20,468 bases of DNA, taken from positions 1-20,468 of IMG/VR virus record IMGVR_UViG_3300031576_000293; one strand, given 5' to 3'. Below, one piece after another: positions 1 through 16,766 of the stretch. Within the stretch, counting starts at the first letter, position 1. Each line of letters starts with the position of its first letter. This DNA is from a virus. The notes below the pieces were generated by a model that made no database searches, was not told the DNA's origin, and worked only from the letters and a program-made list of their open reading frames with translations. The position numbers and the translations under genes are program-made.

Positions 1-2064
1 AGCATGGATCCTCACCCTTTGCAAAATGGTGTAGATCATGCTGTCCTTGTACTCCAGGGCCTCTTGCACGACCACGAACCCGGACGGGGTAGTCCATCGC
101 AGGGCATGCCCCTGCTTCCCCGTGATGCTGGCAACCTTCTTCAGCCAGTCCATGGCCTGCCGGGCCGAGGCCAGCTCGGAGGTCAGGATGCCCCACGTCA
201 CGTCTCGCAAGTACACGGCGCACGAGCGGGGCTTGTGCAGCCCATCTGCATGCCGGTCCGTGATGAACTGGTCGGCCATCCCCTCCATGGTCACCCCATA
301 AGGCAGCGTCATGGCGGCCCGCTTCACGGTCTTGCGAGTGATCCTCCCCCTCCACTGGTGGGAGGGATGAGGGTTCTCGTCATCTATGGGGATTCCTTGT
401 GCGTCCTCGGCCACCTTGGACCGGACCAGCGCAGCCACCAACTCATACACGTCGGCGGGTTGGATAGATGGGATCAAGTTCACCAGCTTCGCAGCTTGCG
501 GGTCCCGCAGCATGGCCGCGAAGTGCTGGAGTCCGTTGCATGTCCCATCCTGGTTCCACGGTAGGTGGCTCACGTAGGTCACGTTGTCCACACCATCTGC
601 CAGGAGATCACCCATCTCGAAGATCGTGGCCAGGGCCTGCCACGGATCGTCCGCTGAGGCCCACCAACGATTCTCGATCGGGTCCTGGGCTGACAGCACC
701 ACGTCGTCGAAGTGGTCCATCGCCCACATGACGCGCCTGTCGAACGACAGCTTGTCCTGCCCGAAGCAGTTGGCCAGCCGGATCAGCAACCACTCCTCAC
801 CGTCCTCTCCCAGCGGCTTGCCTGTGCTGAACTCCAGAAGCCCGCGCGCTACGTCATCTGACTGCGGCTGCAAGTCCCCGGCCACGGGGTACATCCGGCC
901 ACGGTAGTCGAGCTGCTGCGGGAAGAAGAACTCATCCTGGTCTGCGTACGCCGCCGACACCTTGAGCTTGGTCAGGGCCGACTTGCGTTTAGAGATGTTC
1001 CGCGCATTACGATCGTACACCTCCCGCGCCCTGGCCTTGTACTCAAGCCGGGCATCCTCGTTGGTGTCGATGTCGGGCGGCTTCTCGGGCAGCGGCTCCG
1101 GCGCGGCCAGCGGCAAACCTGCCCATCCACCCCCAGCCTGCCACACCTGCTGCATGACGGCGAGCACTCGCTTGTTCACGCGCCACCCAGTGCGCTGCAC
1201 CAGGTTCATCGCACGGTACACCACGCCCCCTGACTCCGGGTGGTCCACTGGATCCTCCAGGATGTTCTGCGGCTTCACCAGTGGGTAGGCGTGATAGCGA
1301 AACCCGCCTCGCTTCCCGGCCGCCCAGTCCCCCGGCGGCACCACCATGGGCAGGTAGTACGGCCGGATCACCTCGCAGTCGCCATGGTGCGACTCCAGCT
1401 CGGTGCGCACCTCAGGCAGTATAGACAGGCGCACCATGCGTCGCAACCTGCCCCGCCTGTGAGCCATGTACCGCACGCGCTTGAACAGGTCGGTGTTGTC
1501 CAGCACCAGCTCCACCAACTTGGCGCCTACCCAATACTTCACGCGCAGCGGCCACCGCCGGTCCACCACGCTTGCCTTGGAGCGCATGTACTGCACCTGG
1601 CGTGGCGTCCAGTTCTTGATCTTCTTCCGCAGCACGTCGAACAATCCCTTGTGCTCGCGCTTGAGCTGTTCGAATTGGTATTCCTGCTCCACGTGCGTGC
1701 CGATGGTGCGACACAACAGCCCCACGGATGCCTCGGCTGTGTCGGCCAGGTTGATCATGTCAACCAGGGCAATCACCGCCATCTTGTCGGCATCCATGGT
1801 CCAGAAGGGGTAGCCCCAGTGGGCCATCCCTCTGCCGGCCATCTTGTCCAGCACCTGCATGCGGGCTGCTTCGACCGCTGGCACTACCAGGTTCAACGCC
1901 CTGCCGATCAGTCGCATCTCCGGCGTGCACCGGGATGGGTCCGCCTCCTGCCGCCACCGCCTGTACCGGGCCACGCCCAGGTCGATGGACTTCAACTCCA
2001 GAGCATCCTGCTCAGCGTACAAGACCGCCTGCTTGGCCTTGCCAAGGGTCTCGAACAAGCTCAT
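1..2064 (-). CDS. T7-type single-subunit DNA-directed RNA polymerase (partial, C-terminus beyond left edge)
   Basis: This enzyme would transcribe the phage middle and late genes from phage promoters in the host cytoplasm. The frame is open from the ATG at 2064 to the window edge, giving 688 residues of a family usually about 800-900 long. DYRGRMYP lies at residue 386. Motif A, DGTCNGLQHF, places the catalytic Asp at 506 (T7 D537). Motif B, KRAAMTLPYG, gives K581 and Y589, with the same spacing as T7 K631/Y639. ALRWTTPSGF follows near the cut end. Motif C (HDS) must lie outside the window. AAGGAGGT sits just upstream of the ATG, inside the 3' end of the protease gene, so the two overlap by 53 bp. 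Identification is firm. Confidence 0.97.
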   Translation of the reverse strand, partial: MSLFETLGKAKQAVLYAEQDALELKSIDLGVARYRRWRQEADPSRCTPEMRLIGRALNLVVPAVEAARMQVLDKMAGRGMAHWGYPFWTMDADKMAVIALVDMINLADTAEASVGLLCRTIGTHVEQEYQFEQLKREHKGLFDVLRKKIKNWTPRQVQYMRSKASVVDRRWPLRVKYWVGAKLVELVLDNTDLFKRVRYMAHRRGRLRRMVRLSILPEVRTELESHHGDCEVIRPYYLPMVVPPGDWAAGKRGGFRYHAYPLVKPQNILEDPVDHPESGGVVYRAMNLVQRTGWRVNKRVLAVMQQVWQAGGGWAGLPLAAPEPLPEKPPDIDTNEDARLEYKARAREVYDRNARNISKRKSALTKLKVSAAYADQDEFFFPQQLDYRGRMYPVAGDLQPQSDDVARGLLEFSTGKPLGEDGEEWLLIRLANCFGQDKLSFDRRVMWAMDHFDDVVLSAQDPIENRWWASADDPWQALATIFEMGDLLADGVDNVTYVSHLPWNQDGTCNGLQHFAAMLRDPQAAKLVNLIPSIQPADVYELVAALVRSKVAEDAQGIPIDDENPHPSHQWRGRITRKTVKRAAMTLPYGVTMEGMADQFITDRHADGLHKPRSCAVYLRDVTWGILTSELASARQAMDWLKKVASITGKQGHALRWTTPSGFVVVQEALEYKDSMIYTILQRVRIHA

Positions 2065-2689
2065 CCACGACCTCCTTCACCTTGGCAATGGGCACGGCCT
2101 TGCTCACGCCAGCACCCCATATGTGTATCCTCACCTGCGTATTCATCCCCACTACCTCGCAGGCAGCGTTCACCAGCGGACCGCCCGAGTTTCCGGGATT
2201 CAGGTTAGCCGTGTGGATCAGGAACCCGTCGTCCGGCTCAGAGGAGAACCCCAGCGTGACCGATCCTCCCAGCTCGAATGGACTGCCAAGAGCGAACACA
2301 AGGGTGCCGATCGGGGGCGGGGCTGCGGCCCTCGGCAATGGCAGAGCGGCCACCTCCACGAACAGCCGGAGCACGGCCACGTCTGCATCGTGGTCTGCTC
2401 CCAGCACGATAGCTGGAGTCTCCACCCCGCCGATCGTCACCGTGGCGAAGCGATGATCACCCACCACGTGGGCCGCCGTCACCACCAACCCGCTGCGGTC
2501 CCACACCCAGCCGGACCCCATGCTCCCTTCCACCCGCACCTCGGCCATGGATGGGGCCGCCTGCTGGGCCAGCCTCATCGTGGCCCAGCTCAGCTCAGCG
2601 AGCGGGCGCGGATCTTGCACCGCCACCGCTGCCAGGGCCAGCGACGTGGCACCAATGATCAACCCGCCCACGAAGTCAACCTTGCCCAT
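2012..2689 (-). CDS. HtrA/DegP-like trypsin-fold serine protease with N-terminal membrane anchor
   Basis: This is a predicted membrane-anchored serine endopeptidase of about 225 aa. A hydrophobic segment (about residues 5-25) is followed by a trypsin-like domain with the full triad: His74 in VVTAAHVV, Asp103 in DADVAVLRL and Ser168 in NPGNSGGPL. The late SKAVPIAKVKEVVDEL segment matches the HtrA pattern (FAIP...VKRVVDQL). No PDZ domain follows, so it is a catalytic-domain-only form. I chose the ATG at 2689; an in-frame GTG at 2713 would add eight residues and neither has an ideal Shine-Dalgarno. It overlaps the membrane gene upstream and the polymerase gene downstream. A protease next to the RNA polymerase is not part of the T7 core set; its substrate is unknown. 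Confidence 0.9.
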   Translation of the reverse strand: MGKVDFVGGLIIGATSLALAAVAVQDPRPLAELSWATMRLAQQAAPSMAEVRVEGSMGSGWVWDRSGLVVTAAHVVGDHRFATVTIGGVETPAIVLGADHDADVAVLRLFVEVAALPLPRAAAPPPIGTLVFALGSPFELGGSVTLGFSSEPDDGFLIHTANLNPGNSGGPLVNAACEVVGMNTQVRIHIWGAGVSKAVPIAKVKEVVDELVRDPWQGQAGGLVR

Positions 2690-2978
2690 GTTTACTATTC
2701 TCGCCTTCTTCACCGCATGGTGAACTTGCCGCTTTCAGTGAAGATCGGTGGCACCACCGCACGACCATATACGTGCCGACGAACCCGCCCAGACTGGCCG
2801 GGATAACCAGCCAGTTGTCCCCTACAACCGAGATCGTGACTCCGGCTCCCGTCAGGTAGATCAGCACCGCCGACACGGAGGCTGTCATCGCCTTTCCCTG
2901 TGCGGTCGCACGCACACACACGGCGTACAGGGCGTCCAACACCAGGGTCAACAAGAATACCGTAAAGGCGGAGATCAC
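2676..2978 (-). CDS. small three-helix membrane protein
   Basis: This is a protein of about 100 aa with three hydrophobic segments: near the N-terminus (AFTVFLLTLVLDALYAV), in the middle (SAVLIYLTGAGVTISVV) and near residue 70 (LVIPASLGGFVGTYMVV), followed by a short polar tail. The pattern VLDALYAV...VGTY resembles small uncharacterised membrane proteins seen in phages, but I cannot name a family. I chose the GTG at 2978 because it overlaps the stop of the upstream 27-residue frame as GTGA and has GGGAG eight bases upstream; a GTG at 2993 is possible. The end overlaps the protease start, suggesting co-translation and perhaps a shared place in the host inner membrane. Confidence 0.7.
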   Translation of the reverse strand: MISAFTVFLLTLVLDALYAVCVRATAQGKAMTASVSAVLIYLTGAGVTISVVGDNWLVIPASLGGFVGTYMVVRWCHRSSLKAASSPCGEEGENSKHGQG

Positions 2979-10762: not shown

Positions 10763-11032
10763 TCACTCCCACACCATGAACTGATGTGGAGGGCCGCAGC
10801 ACGGACACCCGACCTCGCCGGCATCCAGCCCTGTGGCCCGCATCCAATCACGCATGGCCTCGGCCAGGGCCTCTCGCTCGGTGCCGGAGAACACCTTGTT
10901 CATGGCGCGGGGCAGAGTCTTGTAGGCGGAGTAATCGGGCTCCCATCCCTCCTGCATGAGGGCATCGTAGTGCCCCTTTGCAAGCCACCACCTGCCGCCG
11001 CTGTTGTTCTCACTGTACTGGATCGCGTGCAT
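10763..11032 (-). CDS. NNSGG-WWL / CCGPPH phage family protein, 89 aa
   Basis: The ATG at 11032 has GGAGGAACCCTG before it and overlaps the upstream stop as TGATG. The N-terminus MHAIQYSENNSGGRWWLAKG and the C-terminal GCPCCGPPHQF (Cys 76, 78, 79; His83) match a widespread family with the pattern Y.xNNSGGxWWL...GCxCCGPPHxF, seen in many phages and known to me only as uncharacterised. Between them is a helical region (SGTEREALAEAMRDWMRATG). The Cys/His group may bind metal. Confidence 0.8.
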   Translation of the reverse strand: MHAIQYSENNSGGRWWLAKGHYDALMQEGWEPDYSAYKTLPRAMNKVFSGTEREALAEAMRDWMRATGLDAGEVGCPCCGPPHQFMVWE

Positions 11033-11497: not shown

Positions 11498-11721
11498 GGC
11501 CTCACTCCAGGTGCTGGCGTCTCCATCTGCCGCTTGCGTGCGGCCCATGCCTCCGCTTCGCACTGGGCCAGGAACACCAGCCTCTCCATCGCCTTGCCCG
11601 TTGGCACCAGATTGGTCCTTCGCCTCCGGCGGGGCGGCTTGTCGTGCTCTGGCTTGCGGCCCCGCAGGATGGCGGCGGCGTCTCGCACGGTGATCGACCG
11701 TGCCCGGCTGCGGCTACGCAT
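11494..11721 (-). CDS. basic protein, 75 aa
   Basis: The ATG at 11721 has GGGAG seven bases upstream and lies within the end of the previous frame. The protein is very basic (MRSRSRARSITVRDAAAILR; PPRRRRRTNLVPTGKAMERL), followed by a helix (VFLAQCEAEAWAARKRQME). A nucleic-acid-binding role is plausible from charge alone. No family recognised. The end is coupled to the 17-aa frame. Confidence 0.55.
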   Translation of the reverse strand: MRSRSRARSITVRDAAAILRGRKPEHDKPPRRRRRTNLVPTGKAMERLVFLAQCEAEAWAARKRQMETPAPGVRP

Positions 11722-11884
11722 GGCTGTGCTCCCTGTTCTCTCGTGCCATCTCCAGTGCCAGGCTACGCAGTCCTTGCAGGCTGAGCGTGACCCCTGATCT
11801 CTTGGCCCACACGTCCCGCAGCCAGGACACGATCTCACCCACGTCGGTTGTCTTGGGTGCATCGGGCATCTGTTTTCTCCTCAT
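11714..11884 (-). CDS. small helical protein, 51-56 aa
   Basis: Two in-frame starts are available: an ATG at 11884 just after CAGGAGGTTC, and an ATG at 11869 with AGGAGAAAACAG. The second has the better spacing. The protein contains TTDVGEIVSWLRDVWAKRSG and then VTLSLQGLRSLALEMAREN, two likely helices. It lies directly downstream of the hairpin at 11898-11927 and ends with a TAG that overlaps the next start. Function unknown. Confidence 0.55.
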   Translation of the reverse strand: MRRKQMPDAPKTTDVGEIVSWLRDVWAKRSGVTLSLQGLRSLALEMARENREHSHA

Positions 11885-11897
11885 GAACCTCCTGAAA

Positions 11898-11927
11898 GGC
11901 AGCCTCAGCCTCTCGGCTCAGGCTGCC
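11898..11927 (-). terminator. strong hairpin between first and second early genes (terminator or RNase III site)
   Basis: GGCAGCCTCAGCC (11898-11910) and GGCTCAGGCTGCC (11915-11927) pair over 12 of 13 positions with a TCTC loop on the plus strand. On the minus strand the stem is followed only by TTTC, a weak T-run, so full termination is doubtful. In T7, early messages are cut by RNase III at hairpins between genes; such a role here is inference. Confidence 0.45.
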
Positions 11928-11939
11928 GTGCTCTCAGCC

Positions 11940-12320
11940 TCAGCCGAAGCTGCGGCTGTTGATCCGACGAGCATCCATCGGGGTGATCCGGGCCTTGAGA
12001 GTCCGGTTCAGGTTGCTGGAGAAGAACTCCAACGCCACGGTCTGAGCCGTGGCACCGCCGGAGGCGGTAGTGCCGGAGGGCAGGTTCACCAGTGCCTGCC
12101 AGGCATCGGAGAAGATGCGGTCCAGGTTCTCCTGAGCCGAGTCCCGCTCCGCACGGGCATCATCGACGGCGACCAGGCTGACAGCCCACGACTTCTTGAC
12201 TTCGCGGTTCGCAGCCTGGAGCTTCTTCGCAGCCAGTGACAGCCGCTTGTAGACGATGGCCAACATCTTGGCATCATCCACGGTCGGCTGGACCGGCATC
12301 GGATTCGTGATCGTGCTCAC
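11940..12320 (-). CDS. first early gene: helical protein, 126 aa
   Basis: The start is a GTG at 12320, with AAGGAG seven bases upstream. Upstream in-frame sequence overlaps the terminator and hairpin region, so it is not coding. The protein starts STITNPMPVQPTVDDAKMLA, has a long helical region (LSLAAKKLQAANREVKKSWA; VDDARAERDSAQENLDRIFS) and ends in LNRTLKARITPMDARRINSR. It is the first gene of the leftward operon and, by its place, the counterpart of the T7 0.3 position (host-defence or host-take-over genes), but its sequence gives no function. No family recognised. Confidence 0.75.
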   Translation of the reverse strand: MSTITNPMPVQPTVDDAKMLAIVYKRLSLAAKKLQAANREVKKSWAVSLVAVDDARAERDSAQENLDRIFSDAWQALVNLPSGTTASGGATAQTVALEFFSSNLNRTLKARITPMDARRINSRSFG

Positions 12321-12368
12321 GTTGAATCTCCTTGGGGGCCGGCAGCCTGCGGCCACCGTCCCTTGGTT

Positions 12369-12408
12369 GAAGAAAGAAACCGGCCCGATGCACCAGCCAC
12401 CGGGCCGG
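12369..12408 (-). terminator. intrinsic terminator upstream of the early operon
   Basis: On the minus strand CCGGCCCG, a 13-base loop and CGGGCCGG form a perfect 8-bp GC stem, followed at once by TTTCTTTCTTC. This is a textbook intrinsic terminator. It ends the structured RNA region and lies only about 50 bases before the GTG of the first early gene, leaving no clear room for a separate promoter. Confidence 0.8.
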
Positions 12409-13020
12409 ATTGTTGTTGGCAGGACGAGTCCCCGGCACGATCGGCCCAGGCACTTCGGATCATAGTTGAGGCAGTGTGCTTCCCTGATCCTCACCCGTAG
12501 GTTCAGTGCATACCTTGGGCCGATCGTGCCGGGGACTCTCACAGGGTCCGCAGAGTCGTCGGCCTAGAGGCTCGGTCCCTCCAAACGGTCCCTGCTACCT
12601 TTCGTGTCGGTTCAAGGGATAGTAGACCCCTTGGGCCGGTCGCATTGCAACTACCGACTTCGCATGGTTCCCACGACCATGGTTGCACTGTTGGTATCAG
12701 GATCGCGGACTCGCTCGGCCACACGCTTCGCTTTCGGTCCAGGCTTCGCCGTCACCTACTCCCGCTCGCGGTCCGACTCTCGCCGGCATGGTGAAGGACT
12801 CCCCGCCAGGGTGCCCAGCCCCACAGTGCGTTGCACTCGGACCACGGTTTCGGACGCATATTGCCCGAACCTATCCTGTCATCCCTGTCGCCATGATGGC
12901 CGTACGATCGTGCTGTAACTTCCACAGCCACAGCCGCCGCGTAGGAGCCTTTCGGCACTTTCGCACCATGATTCCCGCTTTCTCCTGACGGCCCGCACGT
13001 ACCGACCGCTCGCACGGTGA
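12409..13020 (-). ncRNA. candidate large structured noncoding RNA (5' end uncertain)
   Basis: No convincing gene fits here, yet the minus strand folds into many perfect helices. They are the 23-bp stem (12426-12448 with 12516-12538), CAGGG/CCCTG (12542/12590), CAAGGG/CCCTTG (12613/12628), CATGGT/ACCATG (12663/12676), a 5-bp AGTGC hairpin (12825-12837), GCTGT/ACAGC (12912/12924), GCC-GAAA-GGC (12947-12956) and GGCCGT/ACGGCC (12988-12993 with 12898-12903). TGCAAC/GTTGCA and GTCGGT/ACCGAC cross each other as an H-type pseudoknot (12606-12687). A terminator ends the region. Size, phage location and a nearby tRNA recall the GOLLD/ROOL classes of large ornate RNAs, but I cannot confirm membership. 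The transcript may begin as far up as about 13375. Confidence 0.6.
12426..12538. repeat. 23-bp perfect inverted repeat (67-bp spacer)
   Basis: Positions 12426-12448 and 12516-12538 are exact reverse complements (GAGTCCCCGGCACG... and its mirror). The spacer carries further pairing: GGATCA/TGATCC and GCACT/AGTGC on the minus strand. In RNA it would form a very stable long hairpin just before the terminator; in DNA it could be a cruciform or binding site. Confidence 0.85.
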
Positions 13021-13140
13021 GTCGTCGCGGCCCGCGGATCGAGCCCGGGACCTTGAACGCCGGATTATCGGCCCGCCGGGTTAGCGGCGGCCCTTGCGGG
13101 CGGGCGGGCAAGATTATCCGTGTCAGGGTATGTCGGTTTC

Positions 13141-13301
13141 CGTGCGGCCGACAAGTCGATTGAGGGGTTTCGGTTGAGTCCGGCCAGCCTTGTCGCGTCG
13201 GCCGTGGCCTAGCGTGCTGCGGGGACTTCGGGGCGATCGGGTTAGTAGTGTGCTACCGCGGCCCCTAACCTATTGTCCAGAATCGACTTGTCGGCCGCAC
13301 G
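13141..13301. repeat. 21-bp perfect inverted repeat (119-bp spacer)
   Basis: Positions 13141-13161 (starting CGTGCGGCCGACAAG) and 13281-13301 are exact reverse complements. Within the spacer GGTTAG (13240-13245) and CTAACC (13265-13270) also pair around a small GTAG-TGTG-CTAC hairpin. Large nested palindromes near the ends of T7-like genomes have been tied to replication and end formation; such a role here is inference. Confidence 0.85.
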
Positions 13302-13382
13302 TCGGCCCCTCATCGCGGCCCGGCCTATGACGGGCGGTCAGTCTCGACCAGCCCGCGGGTCCTCCGCACTTGAGGCACTTGT

Positions 13383-13410
13383 AAGGTACGATGCGGGCGG
13401 GCAGGGTCAA
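13383..13410 (-). promoter_or_regulatory. possible host sigma70-type promoter, leftward
   Basis: On the minus strand TTGACC (13410-13405), a 16-base spacer and TACCTT (13388-13383) fit a -35/-10 pair of the TTGACN/TANNNT kind, with a run of seven T upstream that could act as an UP-like element. It would start a transcript near 13375 that covers the inverted repeat, the structured RNA and the early genes. The -10 match is weak. Confidence 0.35.
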
Positions 13411-13508
13411 GGTCCGAGAACGAAAAAAACAGGCCGCCTCCCGCACACGCGGTATAGCCCGCCCAGCCCGCACAGCTTGCAGGCCCCCTGCGGCGCCACG
13501 CGGGGCAC

Positions 13509-13725
13509 GATTATCACCCGCGCCCGGCCAGGCCCGATAATGCGCAGGGCACGATATTATGGGGCACGTCCGGGAATAGCGGCGCGCGCAGGGCGGGGCG
13601 CGAGGGATTATTGGGTAGGTCCGATAATCGCGGCGGCACACAGGGCACGACATTATTGGGTACGTCCGGTAATAGTGGCGGTGCGCAGGGCGGGGCACGG
13701 GGGGTTATCGGGTAGGTCCGATAAC
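13509..13725. repeat. array of five ATTAT-type palindromes in a 96-bp higher-order repeat
   Basis: Five palindromic sites occur at about 13509-13541, 13555-13578, 13606-13629, 13652-13673 and 13704-13725, at 42-52-bp steps. The best are GTTATCGG-6-CCGATAAC (perfect, 13704-13725) and GATTATTGG-6-CCGATAATC (8 of 9). Between them alternate two GC-rich linkers, one with CAGGGCACGA and one with CAGGGCGGGGC. Sites two and four share CGTCCGG and sites three and five share AGGTCCGATAA, so a unit of 96 bp (two sites) is duplicated. Candidate roles: operator, origin iteron or end-maturation array. Confidence 0.8.
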
Positions 13726-13765
13726 TCGCTCCGCGCCTCCCCCTGCGCGAACCCTTGCCAGGCAA

Positions 13766-13836
13766 CATGGCGACCGGGGGTCGAACCCGGGCCTGCGGCT
13801 TGAGGGGCCGACGTGCTTCCACTACACCACCGCCAC
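13766..13836 (-). tRNA. tRNA, anticodon CUC (Glu), with unusual C33
   Basis: The minus strand folds as a 71-nt tRNA: acceptor GTGGCGG/TCGCCAT (7 bp with two G-U), D-arm GTGT-AGTGGAA-GCAC, anticodon stem with CGGC/GCCG and loop CCCTCAA, variable AGGC, T-arm CCGGG-TTCGACC-CCCGG, discriminator G. The anticodon reads CUC, pointing to Glu. Position 33 is C where U is nearly universal, and base pair 27-43 is T-C, so it may be decayed or specialised. CCA is not encoded. It lies 35 bases past the last late gene. Confidence 0.8.
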
Positions 13837-13871
13837 AGCGCGCCTGGGGGCGCTGGAGGTCGCCTGGGGCG

Positions 13872-14141
13872 TCAGCAGCCCTTGTCCCCTCCCAGGGCCT
13901 CCTGGCGCTTCACGCGCTCGTCCCGGGCTCCCAGGCGATGGTCTGCCCGGGAGACGATGGACAGCGTGTCCACCTCGTGTGCCATCAGGCACCGGGAGAT
14001 CCACTGCGCCAGGTCGTCCTCCTGCCCAGCCTCGGGCTCCTTGCAGCCATGCAACTTGCGCAGCAGCTCGGCCATCCGGGACGCCCTGCGCTGCCTGACC
14101 TCCGCGTCCGTGGACAACGGCTCGTCCGTGCGACCTCTCAT
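13872..14141 (-). CDS. hypothetical protein, 89 aa, last late gene
   Basis: The ATG at 14141 has AGGAGGAAGCG upstream and overlaps the previous stop as ATGA. The protein is helical and charged (AEVRQRRASRMAELLRKLHG; QEDDLAQWISRCLMAHEVDT) and ends with two Cys-containing polar residues (KGC). No family recognised. It closes the terminase block before the tRNA. Confidence 0.65.
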   Translation of the reverse strand: MRGRTDEPLSTDAEVRQRRASRMAELLRKLHGCKEPEAGQEDDLAQWISRCLMAHEVDTLSIVSRADHRLGARDERVKRQEALGGDKGC

Positions 14142-14401
14142 CGCTTCCTCCTGCTCTTGGGCTTGGGGATCCGTGCCCCCGCCCTGCGCGCCTCGCTGAG
14201 GGCGATGGCGACGGCCTGCTTCTTGCTGGTGACGTGCGCCCCGCTGCCGGAGCGCAGGGTTCCCCGCTTGAACTCGGACAGGACTACCCCCACCTTCTCC
14301 TTGGCGGGGACGTGCTTCCGCTTGGCCGCCCCGGCCCCGGGCTTGTCAGCATGCTTCATGGCCCTGCGCTTCCGTCTCTCTGCTGGCGTGTGGCTTGGCA
14401 T
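14138..14401 (-). CDS. DUF6496-like basic phage protein, 87 aa
   Basis: The ATG at 14401 overlaps the upstream stop as TGATG, with GAGGATGG before it. A long very basic N-terminus (RRKRRAMKHADKPG; AAKRKHVPAKEK) is followed by VVLSEFKRGTLRSGSGAHVT and SKKQAVAIALSEARRAGARI. The pattern V..EFKxGTLxSGSGxxVTxxKQAxAIALSEAR.AGxxIP is the core of the DUF6496 family, common in phages beside terminase or head genes. Biological role unknown; DNA binding is suggested by charge. Confidence 0.85.
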   Translation of the reverse strand: MPSHTPAERRKRRAMKHADKPGAGAAKRKHVPAKEKVGVVLSEFKRGTLRSGSGAHVTSKKQAVAIALSEARRAGARIPKPKSRRKR

Positions 14402-14952
14402 CAGACCATCCTCGGCCTGCGAGGCCCCATCGTGTCGGGGAGGCCCAGCAGGGTCTTGCGCCCCTCCGCGGGGTTCAGGGCGCGCTTGTTGGGGGTATCG
14501 AACATCGTCGCAGTCCTGGCCTGCTTGAGGATGCGGCCTGTCTTGAACGGGTCGCGGACCTTCTTGGTGAAAGCCGCTCTGGTCTGCTGGGACTCCTCCA
14601 CGAGCTTCATCGCCTGGTCCCGGGGCATGGCACGGTTCTCCTGTGCAGTGGGATCCAGGCCCGTGCGCTGGGAGAAGTGGGCCATGCGACGGGCCTCGTT
14701 GACCTCCATGAGCCGGCGGGCTGCTTTCATCCCCGCGAGAGGGAGGCCGCTCTGCGGATCCACCAGTTTGACCTCCCGGCCCGCCGCGGATTCCTTCTCC
14801 AGGAATGCCCTGGCCGCCAAGTCCCGCTCCGACCGGGACGTGGGCGTGAACTGCTCCTGCGATCGGCTCGCCAGCCGGGCCGCCTCCTCCGCCGCCCTCC
14901 GACGCCGCTCCATCGCTGCTGCCTCGGGCAGCACGCGCTTCATTCCAGCCAT
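14401..14952 (-). CDS. hypothetical helical protein downstream of terminase, 183 aa
   Basis: The ATG at 14952 overlaps the terminase stop as TGATG with GGAGGCGAACCTG before it; a GTG at 14967 is less likely. The protein is almost fully helical with many charged residues (MERRRRAAEEAARLASRSQE; GMKAARRLMEVNEARRMAHF) and has a Pro/Arg-rich end. Coupling to terminase suggests a packaging or virion role, but no domain is recognised. Confidence 0.75.
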   Translation of the reverse strand: MAGMKRVLPEAAAMERRRRAAEEAARLASRSQEQFTPTSRSERDLAARAFLEKESAAGREVKLVDPQSGLPLAGMKAARRLMEVNEARRMAHFSQRTGLDPTAQENRAMPRDQAMKLVEESQQTRAAFTKKVRDPFKTGRILKQARTATMFDTPNKRALNPAEGRKTLLGLPDTMGPRRPRMV

Positions 14953-16766
14953 CAGGTTCGCCTCCACCCGCGGGTGCCCCGGGCCGCGTAGCCGCGCGCC
15001 GGCTGATCCTCCCGCAGGAGCCTTTGCATGTCCAACGGCATCCCGGCCCCCGCAGAGATGGACCTCCCCATCCTCTGCTGCTTGAGCCAGGCTCGCTGGT
15101 GATCCTTCGCCGCCTGCTCCGCGCTGCGGCGCTTCCTACCCTCCGCCACCTGGGCCGGGTCTGACTGAACCAGGTCCGGGAACTGTGCGCAGGCCCCGGC
15201 CAGGGCGTCCAGCAGGTCATCCTGCGGAAGGCAGCCCCGATCGTAGGTGACGTGCGTGTACTGGTGGGTCAGGGCCTCGCACCGGGCCACCCTGGGGTCC
15301 ACGACCATCCGGTGCATGCGGGCCAGCGGCCCGAGCACGTCGATGATGCGCTTCTCCTTCTGCCCGGACGCACGGTGCTCCGTGACCTGCGCCTGGCAGT
15401 ATCGAGCCAGGGCGGAAGCCAGGAGCTTCGCGTACATCCCGTCCCCGAAGTTGGACTCGACCACGACCTCCTTGACGCCGTTCTCCCATGCGACCCGGGC
15501 AAGCTTGTCCAGCACGGCATCCGACGTGCCATCTCCTCGCAGGGCACCCACGGCGTGCACGAACACCATGCCCTGCGTGGCCTTGGCGACGCACCAGGCC
15601 ACCTCATCCTTGCCGCGGCCCGATGGGTCCACGTACATGAGTGATCTCACGTACGCCACCCAGTCCTTCTCGTAGAACACCGGCCCGTGCAGGCAGTCCC
15701 CCTGGAGGCCGCCGTGGTCGATGGAGCGGCCGATGGGGCTGGTGGTCCCCCACACGACTCGGGACGGCGCCATGTCCGCGGCGCAGTCCATCACGATCCA
15801 GTCCCGCAGCTTCAGCGGGTACTTGTCCTCGTCCGCCATGGACGGGTCCAGGAGGAACTGGAGGGCGAACATGATCGGCCCCTCTATGGCCTCCTTCACC
15901 GTCAGGTCCTTGTCGTCGAAGCGCTCCGGGTACGTAGGATCCCCCGTCCGCGCCTCCCCGCGTTCCAGCCTGCCCAGGAGCATCGGGGACACGTCCCTGC
16001 ACCGCACCGCGTCCCGCAGGTCCGGGTAGCGCGCCGGCCAGCGCCGGAGGACGTACCGCTTGTCCAGGTACTTCAGGTACAGGGAGTCCAGCGACTGCGG
16101 GGTGCCCATGATGAGGATACACCCATGCGGGTTGGTCATCAGGGACTCGAACTCCCTGCACTTCTCGTGCAGCTTCTCCCGCTTCCCCACCGTGCCGCTG
16201 TTCTCCGGGATCTCCACGTCGTCGGCCACCACCACGTCCGGGTGGATGCCGGTGAACGACGTGTGGATGCCGTAGGCGCGGCACGACGGGTCCGGGTCTC
16301 GCTGCGCCCTGGCCCCGCACTCGAACCTGTCCTCGCTGTCGAGCATGTCCTTGCGGTAGTCGCTCAGCGCGTTCTGGTCCGCCAGCCTGGGGGCTAGAGG
16401 GCTCAGCAGGGGATGCCCGTCGAACAGACTGCGGACGAACTTCACCATGCGGTTGGCGAAGTCCTGCGTGGACGTGACCACTGCGACCTTGATGTCAGGG
16501 TTGCAGTAGAACAGCCATGCGATGAAGATGGCGACGATGATGCTCTTGCCTGCGCCGCGCTGACACTGGACCTGGCCCCTGGACTTCCCGTCCTCCGAGA
16601 TGGAGAGTGTCTGCATCCAGTCCGCCACGTCGAACACCAGCCAGGCCGGGTCGTCGTAGTGCAGGACCTCGCGGAAGCAGAAGTCCACGAAGTTGCGGAA
16701 GTCGTACTTGAGCGGGTCTGCGCACCCGTCCTCGATCCGCGTCAGCCGCCGCAGGCAGTCGTTCAT
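14952..16766 (-). CDS. terminase large subunit (T7 gp19 type)
   Basis: This protein would package phage DNA into the prohead: an ATPase motor followed by a nuclease. The ATPase has Walker A CQRGAGKS (Lys74), Walker B VVVADDVEIPENS (Asp182-Glu185; T7 gp19 has ADDVEIPSNS) and motif III GTPQS (221-225). The nuclease has Asp380 (MYVDPSGRG), Glu437 (VVVESNFGDG) and Asp516/517 (LPQDDLLDAL). At 604 aa it is the usual length. The ATG overlaps the upstream stop as TGATG. It follows TerS by one gene, as in T7-like phages. Confidence 0.97.
   Translation of the reverse strand: MNDCLRRLTRIEDGCADPLKYDFRNFVDFCFREVLHYDDPAWLVFDVADWMQTLSISEDGKSRGQVQCQRGAGKSIIVAIFIAWLFYCNPDIKVAVVTSTQDFANRMVKFVRSLFDGHPLLSPLAPRLADQNALSDYRKDMLDSEDRFECGARAQRDPDPSCRAYGIHTSFTGIHPDVVVADDVEIPENSGTVGKREKLHEKCREFESLMTNPHGCILIMGTPQSLDSLYLKYLDKRYVLRRWPARYPDLRDAVRCRDVSPMLLGRLERGEARTGDPTYPERFDDKDLTVKEAIEGPIMFALQFLLDPSMADEDKYPLKLRDWIVMDCAADMAPSRVVWGTTSPIGRSIDHGGLQGDCLHGPVFYEKDWVAYVRSLMYVDPSGRGKDEVAWCVAKATQGMVFVHAVGALRGDGTSDAVLDKLARVAWENGVKEVVVESNFGDGMYAKLLASALARYCQAQVTEHRASGQKEKRIIDVLGPLARMHRMVVDPRVARCEALTHQYTHVTYDRGCLPQDDLLDALAGACAQFPDLVQSDPAQVAEGRKRRSAEQAAKDHQRAWLKQQRMGRSISAGAGMPLDMQRLLREDQPARGYAARGTRGWRRT

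Follow-up and report, generated by a model that had tools for sequence, protein, structure and literature searches.

Two long perfect stems enclose related candidate pseudoknot modules in the noncoding stretch past the terminase gene of a T7-like phage fragment

Genomic context of the noncoding stretch

Does the gene-free stretch that follows the terminase gene in this viral DNA hold a large ornate RNA, or a signal of another kind? A sequence-only reading had proposed the former, with a pseudoknot and a terminator, for positions 12409-13020. The window, i.e., the whole stretch of DNA that was analyzed, is 20.5 kb long and is a single contig of an IMG/VR virus record. Its convincing genes are all located on the minus strand. 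A large terminase subunit, TerL, is encoded at 16766-14952 on the minus strand (PHROG terminase large subunit, E 6e-90) and is ~37% identical to its counterparts in Mesorhizobium phage Lo5R7ANS and other Autographiviridae. A TerS-like protein is also encoded, as is a tail-fibre-like protein (20161-17939), for which PHROGs gave matches and Pfam a weak one to the T7 tail fibre. From the TerL and tail-fibre matches it is concluded that the window is a fragment of a T7-like podovirus.

Past TerL, two or three small genes, one of them with DUF6496, are followed by tRNA-Glu (13837-13765, minus strand), the single tRNA of the window, then by ~1.4 kb without genes and by a gene starting at 12323. The tRNA-Glu(CTC) apparently has C in place of U at position 33 and is a lone tRNA in a T7-like phage. 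Elsewhere in the window, a trypsin-like serine protease gene (2012-2713, minus strand; Pfam Trypsin_2, E 2e-22, and a PHROG protease match) and a small protein of PHROG 19096 (10763-11032, minus strand) could be identified. Host signals conflict, as TerL points to proteobacterial podoviruses and the PHROG 19096 protein to phages of Arthrobacter, Mycobacterium and Gordonia, in which its relatives are found.

The gene-free character of the region was borne out, and the stretch proved to be longer than had been described, extending from about 12330 to 13760. GC by codon position was flat from about 12600 to 13950, with a range of 0.01-0.07 compared to 0.3-0.5 in well-defined genes, and the stretch is therefore regarded as noncoding. 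In T7-like phages the region after TerL contains the concatemer junction and the left end with the early leader. In Caulobacter phage S2B the annotated terminal repeat starts about 170 bp past TerL, and in PSA6 the annotated genes are separated by 1.1 kb at the corresponding region; gene-free gaps are usual there. Within the window, a tandem array with a 97-bp period (1.9 copies) and a 45-bp sub-period was observed at 13542-13729, between tRNA-Glu and a run of seven T residues. Its units are hairpins like GTTATCGG-ACCTAC-CCGATAAC, and its position resembles that of the short-repeat arrays that flank T7 terminal repeats.

Folding of the central spacer

When the whole region was folded and compared with shuffled sequences, z was -5.3 on the minus strand and -1.7 on the plus strand. 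After removal of a 23-bp inverted repeat at one end, the remaining 516 nt (12545-13060) folded no better than dinucleotide shuffles (z -0.05 on the minus strand and +1.51 on the plus strand), although energy alone leaves room for a complex fold in this part. The z of -5.3 of the whole region thus comes from the 23-bp element, since the rest is at shuffle level.

The spacer at 12539-13140 (minus strand), which lies between the two elements A and B described below and includes the previously proposed pseudoknot, was assessed by GC by codon position and by shuffle tests. The many perfect helices that had been counted here could not be confirmed: between 12540 and 13020, five helices of at least 6 bp (span up to 80 nt) were found, compared to 6.3 in shuffles. 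The crossing helices of the pseudoknot, TGCAAC/GTTGCA and GTCGGT/ACCGAC, are indeed present as sequence, but such crossing 6-bp pairs occurred in 60% of shuffles. Likewise, the GAAA-loop hairpin exists on the minus strand (GCCGAAAGGC), but three GNRA hairpins compared to 1.3 expected is a number that was reached in 30 of 200 shuffles. In GC-rich DNA, visual counts of helices exaggerate the amount of structure, and the real signal is a smaller paired element that lies partly outside the range first reported.

These results bear directly on the idea that the stretch encodes a GOLLD- or ROOL-like large ornate RNA, or one that has diverged from these families. Such RNAs are likewise phage-borne, noncoding and terminator-ended, and they are often found near tRNA islands (PMC12286853); the adjacent tRNA and a length of about 600-1000 nt would suit this assignment. 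However, cmscan with all Rfam 15 families returned the tRNA alone at gathering scores and no other credible match when E values up to 10 were admitted; neither ROOL (RF03087) nor GOLLD (RF02032) was listed at either setting. A fold of many helices did not emerge above chance; the stretch has a pair of small modules, with a pseudoknot at chance level between them and a single tRNA rather than an island beside them. With the Rfam result and the shuffle-level centre, a GOLLD/ROOL-type RNA is not supported and is considered very improbable.

Two elements with long perfect stems

The 23-bp perfect inverted repeat that had been noticed (12426-12448/12516-12538) is present and forms the stem of element A (12426-12538, minus strand), in which 12538-12516 can pair with 12448-12426 around a 67-nt loop. 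The local fold of this element had a z of about -10. Element B, which was absent from the sequence-only reading and lies outside its coordinates, was identified at 13141-13301 (minus strand), where a 21-bp perfect stem (13301-13281/13161-13141) encloses a 119-nt loop. An end at 13020 therefore cuts the feature. No inverted repeat elsewhere in the window is as long as either of these stems.

A terminator scan gave a good match for a GC-rich hairpin followed by a T-rich tail, TTTCTTTCTT, at 12408-12371 on the minus strand (fold z -2.95). The signal is directional on this strand, in agreement with the intrinsic terminator reported before, and the hairpin is probably the 3' end of the noncoding unit. 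A weak terminator-like site was found by the same scan at 13423-13444 (minus strand); it includes the run of seven T residues (13423-13429), the only such run in the window. The hairpin preceding this run was not better than shuffles, which makes for a weak upstream border; the late transcript may have its 3' end at this site, shortly before element B, and the site may also delimit the noncoding unit on its upstream side. A search for sigma-70 promoter-like sites from 11500 to 15000 gave none. Under nested MFE folding, stability was equal on the two strands in the case of A and higher on the plus strand in the case of B. As these folds do not favour the minus strand, its choice is based on gene direction and the terminator. 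Overall, the earlier proposal of a structured, noncoding, terminator-ended unit on the coding strand of the phage and near a tRNA is supported.

Likeness of the two loops

The core of A (12450-12509, minus strand) was delimited by sequence, descriptor search and alignment with B, and the core of B (13223-13278, minus strand) by sequence, descriptor search and the motif shared with A. Both loops contain AGCACACT and CCGAAGT at nearly equal spacing, for which 0 matches were obtained in 100 shuffles of the window. Structure-blind alignment of the two loops gave p values of about 0.004 and 0.001 under two scorings; under a third scoring the likeness was not significant (p 0.09, 264/3000).

A common architecture is possible in both loops. 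An enclosing helix S0 surrounds a hairpin composed of S1 and S3, of which the 3' side is continuous and the tip is AG-CACA-CU. In a 5'-side bulge of 7 or 9 nt, GGNNC can pair with GNNCC just downstream, which would form the pseudoknot S2, followed by GAAGU. In A, the minus strand offers GCACU/AGUGC for S0 (12509-12505/12454-12450), GGUGA/UCAAC with one mismatch for S1 (12495-12491/12469-12465), GGAUCA/UGAUCC for S2 (12490-12485/12462-12457) and GGAAG-CACA-CUGCC with one mismatch for S3 (12483-12470). The corresponding segments of B, on the same strand, are GGAC/GUCC for S0 (13278-13275/13226-13223), GGUUA/UAACC for S1 (13270-13266/13244-13240), GGGGC/GCCCC for S2 (13265-13261/13234-13230) and GUAG-CACA-CUAC for S3 (13256-13245).

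Read by hand from A to B, four two-sided compensatory changes could be observed: A-U to G-C and U-A to G-C in S2, U-A to G-C in S1 and C-G to G-C in S0. Both copies keep GGNNC/GNNCC in S2, and both variable pairs of this helix are compensated. Three pairs are broken, one each in S1 and S3 of A and one S0 pair that is missing in B. A pseudoknot descriptor applied to 6000 shuffled pairs gave 22 A-like and 67 B-like matches and 0 pairs with both, whereas the real loops both match. Both the descriptor and the motif were selected with knowledge of the copies, and the descriptor alone has ~8 hits by chance on each strand of a sequence the size of the window; the joint result is therefore taken as support, not as proof.

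The likeness could instead be due to chance or to simple duplication of a DNA-binding site, with only the inverted repeats being real, for example as invertible or recombination sites. The likeness is modest: depending on the scoring, p lies between 0.001 and 0.09. In addition, the descriptor was a post hoc fit, and chance occurrences of the motif on its own are numerous in IMG/VR. Such an origin would leave unexplained why the longest and second-longest inverted repeats of the window both contain the 8-mer and the 7-mer, almost equally spaced, and it sits poorly with the joint descriptor match and with the conserved and compensated S2. It is thus considered a possible but rather unlikely explanation. 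The evidence points to A and B as two small paralogous pseudoknot modules, each predicted within a long perfect stem.

Type III antitoxin RNAs (ToxI) are likewise small pseudoknotted RNAs that occur in multiple copies per unit. In contrast to these tandem repeats, the two copies here are diverged, lie about 760 bp apart and are placed inside long stems. No short tandem pseudoknot repeat was found at the site, and the nearby ORFs that were compared with PHROGs or Pfam included no ToxN-like toxin.

Search for relatives

DNA searches of 50,697 phage records returned just the tRNA and chance scraps. TerL relatives in IMG/VR were only 33-39% identical, and their junctions showed no significant similarity by blastn or nhmmer. 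Neighbouring proteins used as bait gave no useful relatives; for the DUF6496 protein, 12 contigs were found, none of which was similar at the noncoding stretch. Matches to AGCACACT and CCGAAGT in IMG/VR and in 84,980 bacterial and archaeal genomes were judged by inspection to be chance, among the matches listed. A loose structural score was not specific, as two motif matches scored 16 compared to 15 for the copies of the window, again among the matches listed. MAFFT alignments of the two copies shifted CCGAAGT by two columns, and because of this misplacement no covariance model was built. In the databases searched, the element is an orphan without a homologue, and the apparent covariation is confined to the two copies.

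Inverted repeats of at least 16 bp that are comparable to those of A and B were rare: only four were present in 100 other loci (899 kb), comprising about 85 TerL-related podovirus loci and a remainder of chance motif hits, and two of the four were repeated operator-like palindromes. At two TerL-related junctions, L079 (9080-9368) and L040 (9029-9239), the inverted repeats look like repeated operator-type palindromes (GTTTACACTGTAAAC; GTTAACCNCGGTTAA), likely sites for some regulator, and they were set aside. The repeated hairpins of a further locus (L105) are unrelated to A and B; they seem to be intergenic repeats, nearly identical to one another, in an AT-rich phage.

Could the inverted repeats act as DNA, at a putative concatemer junction? 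As hairpin ends, or as sites of terminase or RNA polymerase binding, they might serve T7-type processing and packaging. The location after TerL, where T7-like phages hold terminal repeats as in S2B, and the 45/97-bp array nearby recall the terminal repeats and short-repeat arrays of T7 concatemer junctions, and perfect, GU-free long stems are typical of DNA inverted repeats. Moreover, maturation proteins are recruited by the phage polymerase when it pauses at the concatemer junction (PMC3276506). However, a function as DNA does not predict matched loop interiors with compensatory changes, and the junctions of the TerL relatives examined lack comparable paired non-palindromic inverted repeats with matched loops. 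A role at the DNA level is therefore regarded as a minority possibility.

A tentative leader RNA reading

The explanation that is favoured, still tentatively, is a single noncoding unit of ~1 kb with two paralogous stem-clamped pseudoknot modules, which would be a leader RNA from which the modules are excised or protected. This unit would span about 13420 to 12371 on the minus strand, between TerL/tRNA-Glu and the next genes, and would be closed by the terminator-like hairpin. Most likely, transcription of the unit yields an early or leader RNA. Each perfect stem of 21-23 bp would then clamp a loop in which S0 encloses the S1+S3 hairpin, with the S2 pseudoknot beside the conserved GAAGU.

The long stems may represent processing stalks of the RNase III type, as in pre-rRNA and T7 early mRNA. 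Such a reading is favoured because the stems are near the minimum of this enzyme and precedents exist in T7 and T3. The minimum target size of RNase III is 22 nt (PMC5371410), which the 23 bp of A exceed; the 21 bp of B are just under it and thus borderline. Classic examples of precursors processed by RNase III are rRNA and the early RNAs of T7 (reference within PMC5371410), and the left arm of T3/T7 carries an RNase III site (PMC3276506). The stalks of pre-rRNA and the sites of T7/T3 early mRNA (such as R0.3) share with A and B the long perfect double strand around or between RNA segments and the T7-like left-end position. In contrast to them, the stems of A and B would clamp loops of 67 and 119 nt with a common predicted pseudoknot, and the stem of B has only 21 bp. 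Cutting would release two small pseudoknotted RNAs or set the ends of the downstream message.

It is more speculative, and on present evidence doubtful, that the modules constitute a new class of phage RNA, in which CACA-tipped, GAAGU-tailed paired pseudoknots would be excised by RNase III via perfect stalks from an early leader and act as stable small RNAs. If so, such RNAs might act in trans, for example on host RNA enzymes, or function in packaging.

Until homologues or transcripts come to light, the paired modules stay a candidate; their duplication with compensatory changes makes them worth a specialist's look. Should the modules prove to be real RNAs, T7-like phages, from which few structured RNAs are known, would gain a compact duplicated pseudoknot motif, and production of stable small RNAs by such phages, from the leader at the genome junction, would be suggested.
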